In this document: positions 15,253-19,921 of the stretch, piece by piece
How positions within the stretch are numbered: the first letter of the stretch is position 1
How the letters are laid out: each line of letters opens with the position of its first letter
The notes under the pieces: generated by a model
Told to the model about the DNA's origin: nothing
The model's input: the letters and a program-made list of their open reading frames with translations, nothing else
The model's database searches: none
Position numbers and translations under genes: made by a program
From: Hyphomicrobium facile
GTDB taxonomy: Bacteria; Pseudomonadota; Alphaproteobacteria; Rhizobiales; Hyphomicrobiaceae
Assembly (NCBI RefSeq): GCF_900116175.1
Contig: NZ_FPCH01000001.1
Span: 250,501 to 314,500, forward strand
Length of the DNA stretch: 64,000 bases
Direction: 5' to 3'

Positions 15253-17685
15253 TCAGGAACGCAAGTCGCCGCCGGTCGCCTTCTTAACATCCGTTACTAT
15301 TTTTTTGGTTATCGTTTCGATCGCCTGATCGGTCAGCGTTTCCGTCGCAGGCTGGATCGTTATTTCTATGGCGATGGATTTCTTGCCTTCGGCAGCGAGA
15401 CTGCCGCCTTCGAAAACGTCGAACACGTTGACGGAACGGATCAACGCCTTGTCGGCGTTTGCCGCGGCTTTTACCACATCTCCGGCGGCGACGTCCTTCG
15501 GCACGATGAATGCCAGGTCGCGCGTGAGGGGCAACAGATCGGACGCTGCAAGCGGCGGCTTCGCGCGAGATTTCTTCTTCTCCGGCGGCAGGGCGTCGAG
15601 GAAGATCTCGAAAGCGGAAACGGGGGCTTCAACGTCGAGCGCCTTGAGCGTCGCGGGGTGAATTTCGCCGAAGTAGGCGAGCACGGTTTTCGGGCCGAGC
15701 TTGAGCGCGGCTGAACGGCCCGGATGGTACCAAGCCGGGGCATCGCGCGTGATCTGCGCTTTCGAAGGGTCGAGCCCGAGCGCGGAAAGCGCGGCGAAGA
15801 CATCGGCTTTAACGTCGAAGACGCCGACGGGATTGGCGTTGCCGTCCCAGTGCCGCCCCGCGCCCGTCAGGCCCGCCGTTCCGGCGCGCACACCGGCGGC
15901 GCTCGCATATTGATCCTCGGGCCGCTCGCCGCGGTAGGCTTGGCCGAGCTCGAAAAGCGCGACATCGGCAATGCCGCGATTGCGGTTGCGCGTCACTGCG
16001 GTCAGCAGGCCAGGGAGCAATCCCGGACGCATCGACGACATTTCGACGGAGATGGGGTTTCCAAGATCGAGGGCCGGCGCACCGCCGCCGAAATGGACGG
16101 CTTGCTCTTTCGGAATGAAGCTCCACGTCACGGCTTCGACGAAGCCGCGGGCGGCAAGCAAGCGGCGTCCGCGACGGGCACGCTTCTGCTTTTCGGTGAG
16201 GACGGCGCGGGCAATTCCGTCAGCGCGCGGCAGGGGCGTCGCCGGGATGCGGTCGAGACCGGCAATGCGGACGACCTCTTCGACGAGGTCGGCAGTGCCA
16301 TGGACGTCAGGACGCCAGGTTGGAACGGTGACTTTTGCGGCGTTCGGCTTGCCATCGATGGTGAAGCCTAGCGCTTTCAGCGTGTCCGAGATCTCGTCGT
16401 TCGAGATCTTCACGCCCGAGAGCTTTTCGATGCGCGCGAAATCGAAAGAGATGACACGGTTTTCGATTGGCTCTTTGCCCGCGATCTTTGCCTTCGTCGG
16501 CTCGCCACCGCAGAACTTCAGGATCATATCCGTCGCGAGATCGAGGCCGGGGCGCACCGACGCCGGATCGACGCCGCGCTCGAAGCGATACCGGGCGTCC
16601 GTTTGCAGGCCGACCTTTCGGCCCGTCGCCGCCGTGCGGAGCGGATCGAAATAGGCGCTCTCGATGAAGACGTCGGTCGTCGTCTCGGTCGAGCCCGAGG
16701 CTTCGCCGCCCATGATGCCGCCGAGGCCGAGCGGACCAGAGTCATCGGCGATGACGCACATCGTGTCGTCGACTGCGTGCTCTTTGTCGTCGAGGCCGAG
16801 GAACTTCTCGCCTGCTTTGCCAAGACGGGCGCGAATGGCGCCCTTCAGCTTGGCCGCATCATAGACGTGCAGAGGACGTCCACGATCGAGCGAGATATAA
16901 TTCGTGACGTCGACCAGCGCGTTGATCGGGCGGAGGCCAGCTGCCTTCAACCGCGCCTGCATCCATGCTGGCGACGGTCCGTTCTTGACGCCTTTGACCA
17001 AGCGTCCGGCGAATACCGGGCAGGCGTTCGCGGTCTCCTTGGTGAAGTCCAGCTCGATGTCGATCGGGCATTCGGCCTTGCCTTCGACAGGCCCAAGCTT
17101 CGGCTCAGGCTTCAGCTTGCCCATGCCTGCCGCCGCAAGATCGCGCGCGATGCCGCGAACGCCGGTGCAGTCGGGGCGGTTCGGTGTCAGTTTGACTTCG
17201 ATGATGGGATCATTGAGGCCGACGACATCGATATAGCGGGCGCCGACGTTATCGGCCCATTCCGCGGGCAGATCGAGAATGCCGTCGCTTTCCTCGGAGA
17301 GTTCGAGCTCGGCGGCGGAGCACATCATGCCATTCGAGACGACGCCGCGAACGGGCTTTTTCTCGAGCGTGATTTTCGAGCCTGGAATGTACGTTCCGAG
17401 CGGTGCGAAGACGGAGACCATGCCAGGGCGCGCGTTCGGTGCGCCGCAGACGACTTCCATCAGCGGCTCGCCTTTGGCGACCTCGACCTGGACGATCTGC
17501 AACTTATCCGCGTTCGGATGTTTTTTGGCTTCGACGATGCGCGCGACCTTGAAGGCGCCGAGCGACTTCGCCGGGTCTTCGATGCCTTCGACCTCGAGCC
17601 CGATCGCGGACAGCGTCGTCGCGATCTCGTCGACGGATTTCTCCGTATCGAGGTGGTCCTTCAGCCAAGAGAACGTGAATTTCAT
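15253..17685 (-). CDS. pheT: Phenylalanine--tRNA ligase beta subunit
   Basis: 810-residue beta subunit of the (alpha-beta)2 synthetase that charges tRNA-Phe. Domains in order: tRNA-binding OB fold (about 40-155), B3/B4 editing domain (about 210-385), B5 domain (about 410-480), catalytic-like core, and C-terminal FDX-ACB anticodon-binding domain (about 710-805). Start MKFTFSWLKDHLDTE is typical. pheS lies upstream but is separated by a palindrome-bounded DUF559 insertion instead of the usual tight spacing. Confidence 0.98.
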   Translation of the reverse strand: MKFTFSWLKDHLDTEKSVDEIATTLSAIGLEVEGIEDPAKSLGAFKVARIVEAKKHPNADKLQIVQVEVAKGEPLMEVVCGAPNARPGMVSVFAPLGTYIPGSKITLEKKPVRGVVSNGMMCSAAELELSEESDGILDLPAEWADNVGARYIDVVGLNDPIIEVKLTPNRPDCTGVRGIARDLAAAGMGKLKPEPKLGPVEGKAECPIDIELDFTKETANACPVFAGRLVKGVKNGPSPAWMQARLKAAGLRPINALVDVTNYISLDRGRPLHVYDAAKLKGAIRARLGKAGEKFLGLDDKEHAVDDTMCVIADDSGPLGLGGIMGGEASGSTETTTDVFIESAYFDPLRTAATGRKVGLQTDARYRFERGVDPASVRPGLDLATDMILKFCGGEPTKAKIAGKEPIENRVISFDFARIEKLSGVKISNDEISDTLKALGFTIDGKPNAAKVTVPTWRPDVHGTADLVEEVVRIAGLDRIPATPLPRADGIARAVLTEKQKRARRGRRLLAARGFVEAVTWSFIPKEQAVHFGGGAPALDLGNPISVEMSSMRPGLLPGLLTAVTRNRNRGIADVALFELGQAYRGERPEDQYASAAGVRAGTAGLTGAGRHWDGNANPVGVFDVKADVFAALSALGLDPSKAQITRDAPAWYHPGRSAALKLGPKTVLAYFGEIHPATLKALDVEAPVSAFEIFLDALPPEKKKSRAKPPLAASDLLPLTRDLAFIVPKDVAAGDVVKAAANADKALIRSVNVFDVFEGGSLAAEGKKSIAIEITIQPATETLTDQAIETITKKIVTDVKKATGGDLRS

Positions 17686-17709: not shown

Positions 17710-17748
17710 CCCCTCCCGAGCGGGGAGGGGGTAGGGGTGGGGCGAAGC
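17710..17748 (+). repeat. Palindrome copy A (type I)
   Basis: An 8-bp stem CCCCTCCC / GGGAGGGG (17710-17717 with 17723-17730) is followed by a tail GTAGGGGTGGGGCGAAGC at 17731-17748. Type I is defined here by the GAAGC end and is shared with copy D. It lies 25 bp beyond the pheT start codon. Confidence 0.85.
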
Positions 17749-17769
17749 AGTCGGACGGTCATAGCGGTT

Positions 17770-18120
17770 TCATTCCTGTTTCACCACCGCTCCCAATGCG
17801 GCCAGAACTTCCAAGACGACTCCGTCAAGATGGTCCGTAACGTCTCCGTTTCCGATCCGCAGCACGCGGTATCCAAGCCATTGGAGCCGTGCGTCGCGCA
17901 TAGCATCCGATCGACTGTTTTCCGGCAATTGATGCTGCGCTCCGTCGACCTCAATAATCAATTTCTGGGAGAGGCACGCAAAATCAACGATGAAGCCTTC
18001 GATCGGATGCTGCCTCCGAAAGTGATAGCCGGAGGCGCGAAGTTTACGCAGTTCGTTCCAAAGCCGTTTTTCCGAAGAAGTGGGAGTCTCGCGGAGATTG
18101 CGCGCGATCTCGTTGACCAT
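17770..18120 (-). CDS. DUF559 domain protein, Vsr/PD-(D/E)XK-like nuclease fold
   Basis: 116-residue protein matching the DUF559 family, which is related to the Vsr-type endonuclease fold. Visible features: E-x-x-LW-x-LR at about 17-26, FRRQHPIEGFIVDF with catalytic-type D at about 47, and the LIIEVDGAQH core (E57, D59) at about 54-63. The R-D-x-x-L-x-x-x-G-Y-x-V-L-R-I end is also typical. Vsr and PD-(D/E)XK nucleases use the D...E-x-D/K acidic cluster, so nuclease activity is plausible but unproven. It shares strand with pheS and pheT, yet sits between inverted palindromes. The G-rich tail of copy B lies just upstream of the ATG and may serve as ribosome site. Confidence 0.85.
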   Translation of the reverse strand: MVNEIARNLRETPTSSEKRLWNELRKLRASGYHFRRQHPIEGFIVDFACLSQKLIIEVDGAQHQLPENSRSDAMRDARLQWLGYRVLRIGNGDVTDHLDGVVLEVLAALGAVVKQE

Positions 18121-18130
18121 TCGCCTGCGT

Positions 18131-18166
18131 CCTCACCCCACCCCAGCCCCTCCCCTGAGGGGAGGG
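18131..18166 (-). repeat. Palindrome copy B (type II)
   Basis: Read on the minus strand: an 8-bp stem GGGAGGGG-like hairpin (18148-18155 with 18159-18166, loop TGA), then the tail CTGGGGTGGGGTGAGG (18146-18131). Type II is shared with copy C. It ends 10 bp upstream of the DUF559 start codon. Confidence 0.85.
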
Positions 18167-18196
18167 AAAGCGTTGGCCGATGAATTATTTCCAACC

Positions 18197-19270
18197 TCAC
18201 GTCGACAGCCCGCCGCCGAGAGTCGGCACGTCGAGCATCGAAAAGCCGTAGTGGCTCAGCCACTTCAAATCGCCGGAGAAGAACGAGCGCAGATCGGGGA
18301 TGCCGTATTTCAGCATCGTCAGCCGGTCGAGGCCGACGCCGAATGCGAAGCCTTGATACTTCTCGGGATCGAGACCGCAGTTCCGAAGCACGTTCGGGTG
18401 CACCATTCCGCAGCCCAGAATTTCGAGCCATTGGCCGGGCTTGCCGATCGCTTCGGCGCCGATATCGACTTCCATCGAAGGCTCGGTGAATGGGAAGTGC
18501 GACGCGCGGAAGCGCATCTTCACTTCATCGACCTCGAAGAACGCCTTGCAGAATTCCTGCAGCACCCATTTCAGGTGGCCCATGTGGGTCGACTCGTCGA
18601 TGACGAGGCCTTCGACCTGATGGAACATCGGCGTGTGCGTCTGGTCGCTGTCCATGCGGTAGACGCGGCCCGGCGCGATGATGCGGATCGGCGGCTTTTG
18701 CGCGACCATCGTGCGGATCTGCACGGGGCTCGTATGCGTGCGGAGCAGCAGTCGCGAGCCGTCGGGTTTCGGCGCGAAATAGAAGGTGTCGTGGTCCTGG
18801 CGCGCGGGATGCTCGGCCGGGATGTTGAGCTTGTCGAAGTTCATCTCGTCGGTCTCGATGTCCGGACCTTCGGCAACCGAGAAGCCCATATCGGCGAAAA
18901 TCTCTACGACTTCGTCGAGGACCTGGCTGACGGGATGAATGCGGCCTTCCGCAACGGGGCCGAGGCGAACCGGCAACGTGACGTCGGCGCGCTCGGTCTT
19001 GAGGCGCTCGTCGAGAGCTGCCGTTTCAAGCACCGCTTTGCGGGCGTCGAGCGCGTCGGAGACTTTCGTTTTCAGCGTATTGACGGTCTGGCCGAAGTTC
19101 TTGCGCTCTTCAGGCGGGAGCGAGCCGAGTTTGCTCATCAGCTCGGACACTCGGCCCTTCTTGCCGAGGGCCGATACGCGGACGGCGTCGAGCGATGCCA
19201 GATCACCGGCGCCGGCAATCTCGGCCAGTAGGTCTTTTTCGAGGACTGCGAGGTCGTTAGCGCCGCTCAT
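18197..19270 (-). CDS. pheS: Phenylalanine--tRNA ligase alpha subunit
   Basis: 357-residue catalytic subunit of phenylalanyl-tRNA synthetase. An N-terminal coiled-coil arm (about 1-90) precedes the class II catalytic domain with motif 2 ([14 protein letters not shown]) and motif 3 ([17 protein letters not shown]). Start ATG 19270. It is flanked on both sides by palindromic elements, one against pheT and one against rplT, so the classical rplT-pheS-pheT operon is broken up by repeats here. Confidence 0.98.
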
Positions 19271-19315
19271 AGAAATCTCCTTGAGCCGGAACCCAACATT
19301 CTTTTCCCCAGATCA

Positions 19316-19354
19316 CCCCTCCCCTCAGGGGAGGGGCTGGGGTGGGGTGAGGAT
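19316..19354 (+). repeat. Palindrome copy C (type II)
   Basis: A perfect 9-bp stem CCCCTCCCC / GGGGAGGGG (19316-19324 with 19328-19336, loop TCA) is followed by the tail CTGGGGTGGGGTGAGGAT at 19337-19354. The tail is identical over 17 bases to that of copy B on the opposite strand, apart from the last base or two. Confidence 0.85.
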
Positions 19355-19423
19355 CCAGGCGCATGGCTAGCGGCGAAACTCCACTATTGTGCCAGGAACT
19401 TGCATTGCGCCCGCTCGGTTGTG

Positions 19424-19464
19424 TGGCTTCTCCCCACCCCTGACCCCTCCCCGCCGGGGAGGGG
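19424..19464 (-). repeat. Palindrome copy D (type I)
   Basis: A perfect 9-bp stem CCCCTCCCC / GGGGAGGGG (19444-19452 with 19456-19464, loop GCC). On the minus strand it is followed by the tail TCAGGGGTGGGGAGAAGCC. The GAAGC end groups it with copy A. Confidence 0.85.
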
Positions 19465-19519: not shown

Positions 19520-19921
19520 TTAAGCCGCCTTCTTGACCTTGTCCTGGTCGGCCTTGGCGACCGGCGAGCTGGCAGCTGCCGCAGCCTTGTCGACGAGAGC
19601 CTTGAAGCCCGCCGGATCGTTGATCGCGATATCCGACAGAACCTTGCGATCGACCTCGATGCCGAGGTTCGTCAGGCCGTTGATGAAGCGCCCGTAGGTC
19701 AGGCCGTGCTCGCGGACAGCGGCGTTGATGCGCTGGATCCAGAGCGCGCGGAAATTGCGCTTGCGACGCTTGCGATCGCGATAGGCATACTGCTGCGATT
19801 TCTCGACAGCCTGCTTGGCGACGCGGATCGTATTCTTGCGACGGCCATAAAAGCCCTTCGCGGCCTTGATTACTTTCTTGTGCTTGGCGTGGGCGGTGAC
19901 GCCACGTTTGACGCGAGCCAT
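19520..19921 (-). CDS. rplT: 50S ribosomal protein L20
   Basis: 133 residues, with the canonical L20 opening [19 protein letters not shown] and the [20 protein letters not shown] core. An Ala/Lys-rich tail of about 15 residues exceeds the usual 117-120 length and is common in alphaproteobacteria. L20 binds 23S rRNA early in 50S assembly and in several bacteria represses its own operon by binding the rpmI-rplT leader. It lies 98 bp downstream of rpmI, in one operon. Confidence 0.98.

Follow-up and report, generated by a model that had tools for sequence, protein, structure and literature searches.

The window, a 64,000-nt stretch of the Hyphomicrobium facile genome (contig NZ_FPCH01000001.1, positions 250,501 to 314,500), carries a compact unit between pheS and pheT, in which a DUF559 gene occupies 351 of 458 bp and is enclosed by two palindromes that are inverted relative to each other, with their tails pointing inward. 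The names PheS and PheT were read from the sequence without library comparison. The features of the locus are as follows.

15253-17685, minus strand: pheT, neighbour of the element (named by inspection); its start is the junction compared in 22 genomes
17710-18167, minus strand: whole element, 458 bp, in the pheS-pheT intergenic region
17710-17730, no strand assigned: hairpin at the 3' end of the element, CCCCTCCC-loop-GGGAGGGG
17734-17742, plus strand: putative third-strand tract GGGGTGGGG at the 3' end of the element, towards the gene; mirror 8/8, direction inward
17744-17748: inner word GAAGC, following the third-strand tract at the gene's 3' end
17770-18120, minus strand: DUF559 gene (PD-(D/E)XK, Vsr-fold nuclease family), 116 aa
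18136-18144, minus strand: putative third-strand tract at the 5' end of the element, GGGGTGGGG on the minus strand; mirror 9/9, direction inward; TGAGGA lies directly inward of it (GAGGA being the inner end word)
18147-18167, no strand assigned: hairpin at the 5' end of the element, CCCTCCCC-TGA-GGGGAGGG at 18148-18166
18197-19270, minus strand: pheS, the other neighbour (named by inspection)
19316-19464, no strand assigned: apparent gene-less miniature derivative with the same two ends, between pheS and an upstream ORF (19520-19921)
19339-19347 and 19432-19440: putative third-strand tracts of the gene-less derivative

A sequence-only reading had already placed a DUF559 gene here, between inverted palindromes with inward tails and with ends of two subtypes. 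This is borne out: the 116-aa ORF at 17770-18120 (minus strand) matches Pfam DUF559 (E 1.2e-32), palindromes lie at 17710-17730 and 18147-18167, and each end has its own inner word (GAGGA on the 5' side of the gene, GAAGC on the 3' side). When three mismatches are allowed, a 21-nt palindrome pattern is matched seven times in the window (at four places, strands counted separately) and never in 100 shuffles. Two features had gone unmentioned, namely that a 9-nt purine tract in each tail mirrors the stem, and that a second, gene-less copy lies upstream of pheS.

The gene-less copy retains both inner end words and, at one end, the start-codon region. Its first 50 nt agree with the 5' end of the DUF559 unit at 47 of 50 positions, and because this identity extends through the ATG the copy looks like an internally deleted derivative of the unit, as far as can be judged from sequence alone. 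As a short gene-less copy bearing both ends of a gene-bearing element, it fits the definition of a MITE- or REPIN-like derivative. Further end-bearing places in this genome are three gene-less doublets (C3, C4 and C5:634636) and a single-end place (C1). At dnaN-recF of the same genome (C5, about 20.2-20.96 kb, L169), only a right-hand end is found; its neighbour is an unrelated 161-aa ORF, which gives the impression of a replacement of the DUF559 gene. An RNA family at the element ends was considered and rejected, no Rfam match reaching its gathering score. The lowest Rfam E-value belongs to whalefall-1 (RF01762), with sub-threshold matches at 18129-18168 (E 0.023, 20.8 bits against a gathering score of 37) and 19313-19354 (E 0.038, 20.2 bits, same gathering score); this family might include repeats related to these ends.

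The DUF559 protein (PF04480; 112.5 bits against a curated cut-off of 20.6) is the only match to its family found in the window's genome. An AlphaFold2 model (pLDDT 88.6) compared by Foldseek has 3hrl (5e-8) and 3r3p, the homing endonuclease I-Bth0305I (2e-5), as its nearest solved chains, followed by Vsr (1vsr, 3.6e-3). Seven residues are invariant in 23 diverse members of the family (E17, D46, E57, D59, H63, D72 and R75); among 17 DUF559 proteins of the genus, E17 is not invariant and the other six are. We take E17, D46, H63 and D72 to be the set for which the EDxHD motif is named. Model and alignment thus jointly satisfy the definition of an EDxHD/Vsr-fold protein (fold plus acidic and histidine active-site residues), and the invariant set is what would be expected of an active nuclease of this type; activity itself is inferred. 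In Caulobacter, the DUF559 protein VsrA is described, in the accessible part of the source, as responsible for the SOS response of cells lacking the methyltransferase ScmA, and is interpreted there as a mismatch-repair enzyme (PMC12907096). Such DNA-damage signalling fits a nuclease activity of DUF559 in vivo. A phage or plasmid origin was discarded because matches of the protein are few and of low identity (two phage records below 40% and 43 plasmid records all below 60%).

DUF559 is present in 16 of 22 genomes of the genus, and its surroundings there and in the order resemble those in the window. Flanking inverted repeats were scored by comparing the 250 bp upstream with the reverse complement of the 250 bp downstream. 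A control of cross pairs between loci (95% point 27.5, maximum 141.5) is inflated by shared repeat types, and shifted windows were therefore used instead. Among 86 genus and order loci, 62 exceed the 95% point of 168 shifted controls and 53 exceed the control maximum (median score 27.5 vs 12.5); 24 are not above the threshold. Within the genus, 17 of 18 testable loci pass, nine of 27 rows (fragments or contig ends) having been left out; L116 was likewise dropped from the scoring of flanks, and the order rows comprise 29 loci plus 40 chosen with the best E-values first and few per genome. Across phyla, 56 of 75 testable named loci score above 18, vs 18 of 428 controls, among the matches listed (80 listed minus five at contig ends; one of the 56, L230, is an N-run artefact and is discounted). 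Again among the matches listed, these divide into 16/25 in Hyphomicrobiales, 22/27 in other Alphaproteobacteria and 18/23 in other groups (17/22 without the artefact), with groups assigned from record titles and three of the 23 'others' being 'uncultured bacterium'. The named loci include Mesorhizobium, Brevundimonas, Sphingopyxis, Lysobacter, Cedecea, Geobacter, Desulfobacterales, Gastranaerophilales, SAR202 Chloroflexi and Patescibacteria; several come from metagenome bins, in which misassignment is possible. Hence, the expectation of the sequence-only reading that DUF559 homologues carry an excess of flanking palindromes is met in both samples.

The ends themselves follow a common design. 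G/C hairpins with the pyrimidine arm first are found on both sides at 98 of 160 loci and on at least one side at 149, vs 0 and 40 of 590 controls, respectively. Since a hairpin is identical on both strands, this count tests arm order and not direction, and the direction of an end was determined from its third strand. In 161 loci the third strand points towards the gene at 179 ends and away from it at 25, while 34 ends are of undetermined direction and 84 lack a qualifying hairpin; both ends point inward at 66 loci and outward at 3, and 16 loci have a qualifying hairpin at neither end. Sixty-five two-ended inward units (the 66 minus one) measure 398-576 bp, with a median of 459 bp (IQR 443-493), and the DUF559 ORF makes up a median fraction of 0.87 of the unit (an upper estimate, taken from the first possible start).

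In addition, the tail of an end is the mirror image of the purine arm of its hairpin. With G allowed opposite G and A or T opposite A, the mirror is perfect at 97 of 186 ends, vs 8 of 930 shuffled tails and 13 of 930 tails taken from other stem types; with one mismatch in nine it holds at 145 of 186 real, 65 of 930 shuffled and 265 of 930 swapped tails. Tails too short to score excluded 38 of 224 labelled ends. Both window ends are perfect mirrors over the positions scored (9/9 at the 5' end, 8/8 at the 3' end), and the pairing changes with the stem: GGGGAGGGG goes with GGGGTGGGG in the window type, GGGAGAGGG with GGGTGAGGG and GGGAGAAGG with GGATGAGGG in others. The GGGAGAT stem type never gives a perfect mirror (0/20 ends) and fits at 8/9 in 14. 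Where stems are asymmetric (89 ends), the mirror is better than a direct repeat at 61 ends, worse at 1 and tied at 27. One large group has a second small hairpin between stem and third strand. Many loops of the 145 well-matched ends are long; of the short ones, TTA is the most frequent (19). A third tract mirroring the purine arm is what defines the class II intrastrand purine motif, and the window ends conform to it. An intrastrand purine triplex requires such a mirror relation, which the half-sites of a dimer would not produce; the mirror tail can be read as the signature of such a triplex, with the folding of these variants inferred. For the E. coli form of the motif a triplex was demonstrated in vitro by CD and NMR, and in vivo footprinting, as far as the accessible part of that report goes, gave no support for a stable triplex (PMC4666352).

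By this arrangement of arms and tail, the ends are identified as variants of a widespread intrastrand-triplex repeat, and the 'tails' of the sequence-only reading would be the third strand of the motif. The repeat has been known in E. coli since the 1990s under the successive names BoxC, PIT and TM-ECO (PMC4666352). According to the accessible part of the 2015 survey, there are 3610 copies in 262 proteobacterial genomes and 23 in K-12, where they are intergenic without exception and include five inverted pairs, each combining two subtypes; the motif forms a stable triplex in vitro, its sites are highly variable and mark unstable loci, it has neither promoter nor terminator activity according to earlier work cited there, and no activity that could confer genetic mobility had ever come to light near it (PMC4666352). 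DUF559 and ycjD do not appear in the main text of that survey. More broadly, no paper connecting DUF559 to palindromes, to triplex repeats or to mobile elements was found in the open-licence PMC literature, and earlier publication elsewhere is possible. The window ends share with BoxC/PIT/TM-ECO the order of pyrimidine arm, loop, purine arm, 3-nt loop (often TTA) and mirror third strand, the intergenic position, the two subtypes in inverted doublets and a copy number that differs between close strains. They do not satisfy the strict formula (CCCTCNCCCN3-6GGGNGAGGGN3GGGNGAGGG, 0 matches in the window's genome); their stem is a different one (GGGGAGGGG/GGGGTGGGG) that follows the triplex rule all the same. 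The formula is matched in 57 of 104 genomes of a phylum sample with strong DUF559 matches. A further difference is that the accessible survey text reports no mobility activity for the repeat (PMC4666352), for which DUF559 is a candidate here. The suggestion that the locus represents a distinct class of repeat element is supported by the generality of the gene-repeat layout, with the correction that the palindromes are not private to it, being a BoxC/PIT variant.

Gene and repeat also co-occur between genomes. In 297 genomes of the order, DUF559 is found in 152, with 1 to 9 matches each. Repeats were counted with a pattern built from the loci described here (CTCCCN0-10GGGAGRRGN2-30TGAGGG) and average 38.1 per genome with a strong DUF559 match (E at most 1e-20; 129 genomes) vs 1.3 without any match (145 genomes). 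At least five repeats occur in 94/129 strong-DUF559 genomes vs 16/168 others, and in 79/129 vs 16/168 after subtraction of two repeats per gene copy; the observed value was never reached in 5000 within-family permutations, and the reversed pattern, which serves as a control, never exceeds one match per strand of a genome. Because this pattern was made after the loci had been seen, a second comparison, over 398 genomes of the phylum, used the TM-ECO formula as published. Here the mean is 13.4 motifs with strong DUF559 (104 genomes), 2.3 with weak (41) and 0.9 with none (253), at least five motifs are present in 33/104 strong-DUF559 genomes vs 9/294 others, and within-family permutation again gave 0/5000 (11 chosen families, 183 of 398 genomes). 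In one family, counts are 4, 17, 36, 67, 99, 184 and 273 with DUF559 and 0 (seven times), 1 and 36 without it. The window's genome, whose ends belong to a different stem type, for that reason matches neither the order pattern nor the TM-ECO pattern. Some genomes are rich in repeats but lack strong DUF559, both in the phylum sample (G436 with 121 motifs, G577 with 71 and a weak match, G360 with 36, G486 with 21) and in the order sample (G150 with 67 and a weak match, G085 with 62 and a weak match, G270 with 46, G062 with 27, G026 with 24). G436, G360, G486, G270, G062 and G026 combine many repeats with no DUF559 match of any strength in these searches. In such exceptions the gene may have been lost or left unassembled, more distant relatives may be present, or there may be other movers. 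At the other extreme, repeat numbers are very high in G230 (401), G186 (239), G253 and G311 (212 each), which makes these genomes suited to the study of recent spread.

In E. coli K-12, ycjD is a DUF559 gene. One hairpin-tail overlaps its 3' end and a BoxC lies about 165 nt beyond, with none on the 5' side. The fabI-sapF interval including ycjD (80% cover) is found in 3362 of 5426 E. coli genomes. In a sample of 60 records, 37 contain a whole 71-nt ycjD-adjacent query and have 13-28 BoxC-like places, 22 chromosomes without it have 1-16 (median 4), and the remaining row is a small record. This comparison is only suggestive of a higher BoxC number alongside ycjD, because the query stands in for ycjD by proximity and clonal structure confounds it. 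A clean empty site at ycjD was sought without success: two strains lacking ycjD carry other genes there, and therefore no boundary could be set. Other E. coli BoxC copies lie between neighbouring genes (nrdA/nrdB, L280; flgF/flgG, L281; recA/recX, L279; ytfQ/ytfR, L277), positions that resemble the intergenic setting in the window. Two BoxC doublets (L275, L282) have their tails pointing outward, whereas most ends beside DUF559 point inward; this orientation is not explained by the mobile-element model developed below.

DUF559 units occupy different places in related genomes, with at least six sites in the genus (pheS-pheT, after pheT, dnaN-recF, nuoF-nuoG, trpB-trpA and unnamed others; names by inspection). 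Among 22 genomes compared at pheS-pheT, the unit is present in two (G000, the window's genome, and G018), the stop-to-start gap is only 10-11 nt in eight, and the remaining 12, including G007 and G020, have other sequence. Hence, the gene is not fixed at this site, whereas fixation would have told against the sequence-only reading, and the occurrence of occupied and unoccupied alleles of one site agrees with what is expected of a mobile element. Occupied and short or unoccupied alleles also exist at dnaN-recF and nuoF-nuoG. Among 21 genomes at dnaN-recF, five have one stem type in one orientation (G001, G002, G004, G014, G019), four have another stem type in the opposite orientation (G008, G012, G016, G020), G009 has ends without a gene, G000 has one end, G011, G003 and G010 are short, and seven have other sequence. 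For the window copy, the sequence beside the ends does not match the short pheS-pheT alleles of relatives base for base and no target duplication is visible, so no clean insertion boundary can be drawn. At nuoF-nuoG in two genomes, the first 26 bp of nuoG stand on both sides of the insert (25/26 identical), and at glyQ-glyS in one genome the first 69 bp of glyS are duplicated (68 identical). A constant target duplication was rejected: a direct duplication exceeding every cross pair is seen at only 3 of 62 loci, with unequal lengths (26, 26 and 69 bp), and L022, which exceeds 99% of cross pairs, is not a copy of the nuoG start. The junctions also hold other material. G007 and G020 (L040, L042) have an rtcB-like gene (by inspection) plus a remnant of the element's right end at pheS-pheT, and in G015 and G017 (L056, L057) the junction is taken up by a short ORF. 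In other species, the same operon junctions contain a different family of intergenic repeats, CGTCATTCTCGGCC ... GCTGGATCCCCGAACG with its variants (pheS-pheT gaps L044, L050, L051 and L054; dnaN-recF gap L170).

These sites bear on the possibility that DUF559 is a free-standing homing endonuclease, which would cut empty operon junctions and have the unit copied in by double-strand-break repair, the palindromes being by-products. The protein shares its fold with I-Bth0305I (3r3p) and Vsr and gives a match to the PADLOC homing-endonuclease model (1.2e-5), dnaN-recF is occupied in 9/21 genomes by two stem types in opposite orientations, and copies of start codons stand beside the insert at nuoG and glyS. 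Homing would lead one to expect one cognate site, in contrast to the six or more in the genus and to the dispersed small derivatives. Unlike endonucleases of the I-Bth0305I type, the DUF559 unit is not intron-borne, is not limited to one site and owns terminal repeats and miniature derivatives. We regard homing as unlikely, if still worth keeping in mind.

Stem type was further compared with the tree of 139 DUF559 proteins. It requires 32 changes vs 69 ± 2.5 when shuffled (0/300), and 31 vs 53 (0/300) without the one clade-specific type; many forks are unresolved, and 22 of 161 loci without a stem label were left out. In the genus alone there are three changes, a number reached by 18 of 1000 shuffles, the label of L020, where ends of two kinds are nested, being doubtful for that reason. 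Some DUF559 proteins of the order lie at near-zero tree distance from Mesorhizobium DUF559. That stem type tracks the protein tree indicates a cognate pairing of ends and protein.

Passive hitch-hiking, in which the repeats spread by other means and DUF559 is carried between two of them by homologous recombination, would predict many different genes between repeat pairs. Repeats are abundant enough to serve as homology in some genomes (up to 401 copies), and these junctions also hold other genes beside a remnant end (the rtcB-like gene in G007 and G020, the 161-aa ORF at dnaN-recF in G000). Improbable as we judge it, this explanation would also have to accommodate the absence of flanking pairs from shifted windows of the same loci (0/590), the low inverted-repeat scores of the 168 shifted controls, the narrow unit length (459 bp, IQR 443-493), the agreement of stem type with the protein tree and the fact that genomes without DUF559 are mostly without repeats.

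A host role, with DUF559 as a Vsr-like repair or structure-processing nuclease near G-rich repeats that are themselves regulatory or structural, draws on the Vsr fold and on the SOS response caused by Caulobacter VsrA without ScmA (PMC12907096, accessible part). It is hard to reconcile with the patchy presence of the gene (1 to 9 matches in each of 152/297 genomes), its several insertion sites within a genus, inverted cognate ends and gene-less derivatives, or with the E. coli motif having, in the portion of the survey at hand, neither promoter nor terminator activity (PMC4666352), and we hold it to be very improbable. Finally, movement of the hairpins in trans by a RAYT/IS200-type Y1 transposase, with DUF559 as cargo, is suggested by the REP/REPIN-like look of hairpin ends and doublets but was rejected as scarcely tenable on the absence of any Y1 match (PF01797) from the window's genome and the lack of association of Y1 with repeat number in the order (19/46 vs 76/251, p=0.17, against 6e-22 for DUF559).

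The known system closest in layout is REP/BIME/REPIN with its RAYT (TnpA-REP), in which one gene is likewise flanked by an inverted, genome-wide palindromic repeat, and RAYT REPtrons are accompanied by dispersed gene-less doublets, as DUF559 units are (PMC6006769, accessible part). The DUF559 unit fulfils both of these points. It does not fulfil a third, a Y1/HUH transposase between the repeats: RAYT is a HUH/Y1 enzyme, whereas the window protein is a PD-(D/E)XK/Vsr-fold nuclease. In place of the REP foot GT[AG]G the DUF559 ends carry a mirror-repeat third strand; by reading, no such foot lies outside the window hairpins, although GTA stands in one inner loop. The view of the sequence-only reading, that the layout is of REP/RAYT kind and the transposase's place is taken by a nuclease-fold protein, is supported (62/86 and 56/75 loci, short pheS-pheT gaps in eight of 22 relatives, no Y1 found in the genome). 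That the element is nuclease-driven, as the same reading proposed, is inferred, and neither cleavage nor movement has been observed. RIME repeats resemble the DUF559 ends in being palindromic, intergenic and rhizobial, with a function described as unknown in the accessible part of the source (PMC2573895).

Taken together, we favour the reading that the window holds one copy of a widespread family of compact mobile elements with the DUF559 nuclease as mover, to which we assign a probability of about 0.72, movement and cleavage being inferred. That the DUF559 unit is the source of the repeats we consider highly probable; that the nuclease moves the unit is likely, and likewise inferred. Because the gene-repeat pairing recurs in many bacteria, DUF559 is the best candidate for the long-missing mover of the repeat. 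Comparison of sequences establishes the architecture, the mirror rule, the co-occurrence, the cognate pairing, the alleles with and without the unit and the derivative, whereas movement, nuclease dependence, single-strand or triplex recognition and nick-and-copy insertion are inferred. In this model, the DUF559 protein would recognise its cognate end once this is extruded, at a place such as a replication fork, into a hairpin of single-stranded DNA or an intrastrand triplex, and would nick the DNA at the element ends and at the target. Host replication or repair would then copy the unit into a new gap, which in the named cases would be an operon junction. Insertion may sometimes leave a long, unequal target duplication (26 bp of nuoG, 69 bp of glyS), which would reflect two separated nicks filled in by polymerase. 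Miniature copies (BoxC/PIT/TM-type repeats and 19316-19464 of the window) could be moved in trans, so that the element would work in a manner similar to a REP/RAYT 'REPtron' with unrelated chemistry. To our knowledge, no strand-transfer activity is known for a nuclease alone.

A wider reading, to which we lean only slightly, would have DUF559 nucleases define a mobile-DNA class: a single Vsr-fold nuclease would recognise an intrastrand-triplex end, and BoxC/PIT/TM repeats and many intergenic palindromes of rhizobia would be miniatures of the element. As part of the same reading, the class would span Alphaproteobacteria, Gammaproteobacteria, Desulfobacterales, Chloroflexi, Gastranaerophilales and Patescibacteria. 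A sequence link of RIME-type rhizobial repeats to DUF559 ends is our assumption and has no sequence comparison behind it.

DUF559 is a family of unknown function present in 152 of 297 genomes of the order. If gene and repeat are partners, the orphan repeat BoxC/PIT/TM gains an enzyme and the orphan DUF559 family gains a substrate; that stem and third strand have evolved to match would then be evidence for selection of the triplex structure. E. coli K-12 holds both ycjD and 23 copies of the motif (PMC4666352, accessible part), so the partnership can be tested there. If the wider reading of DUF559 nucleases as a mobile-DNA class is true, triplex DNA would be a real biological substrate.
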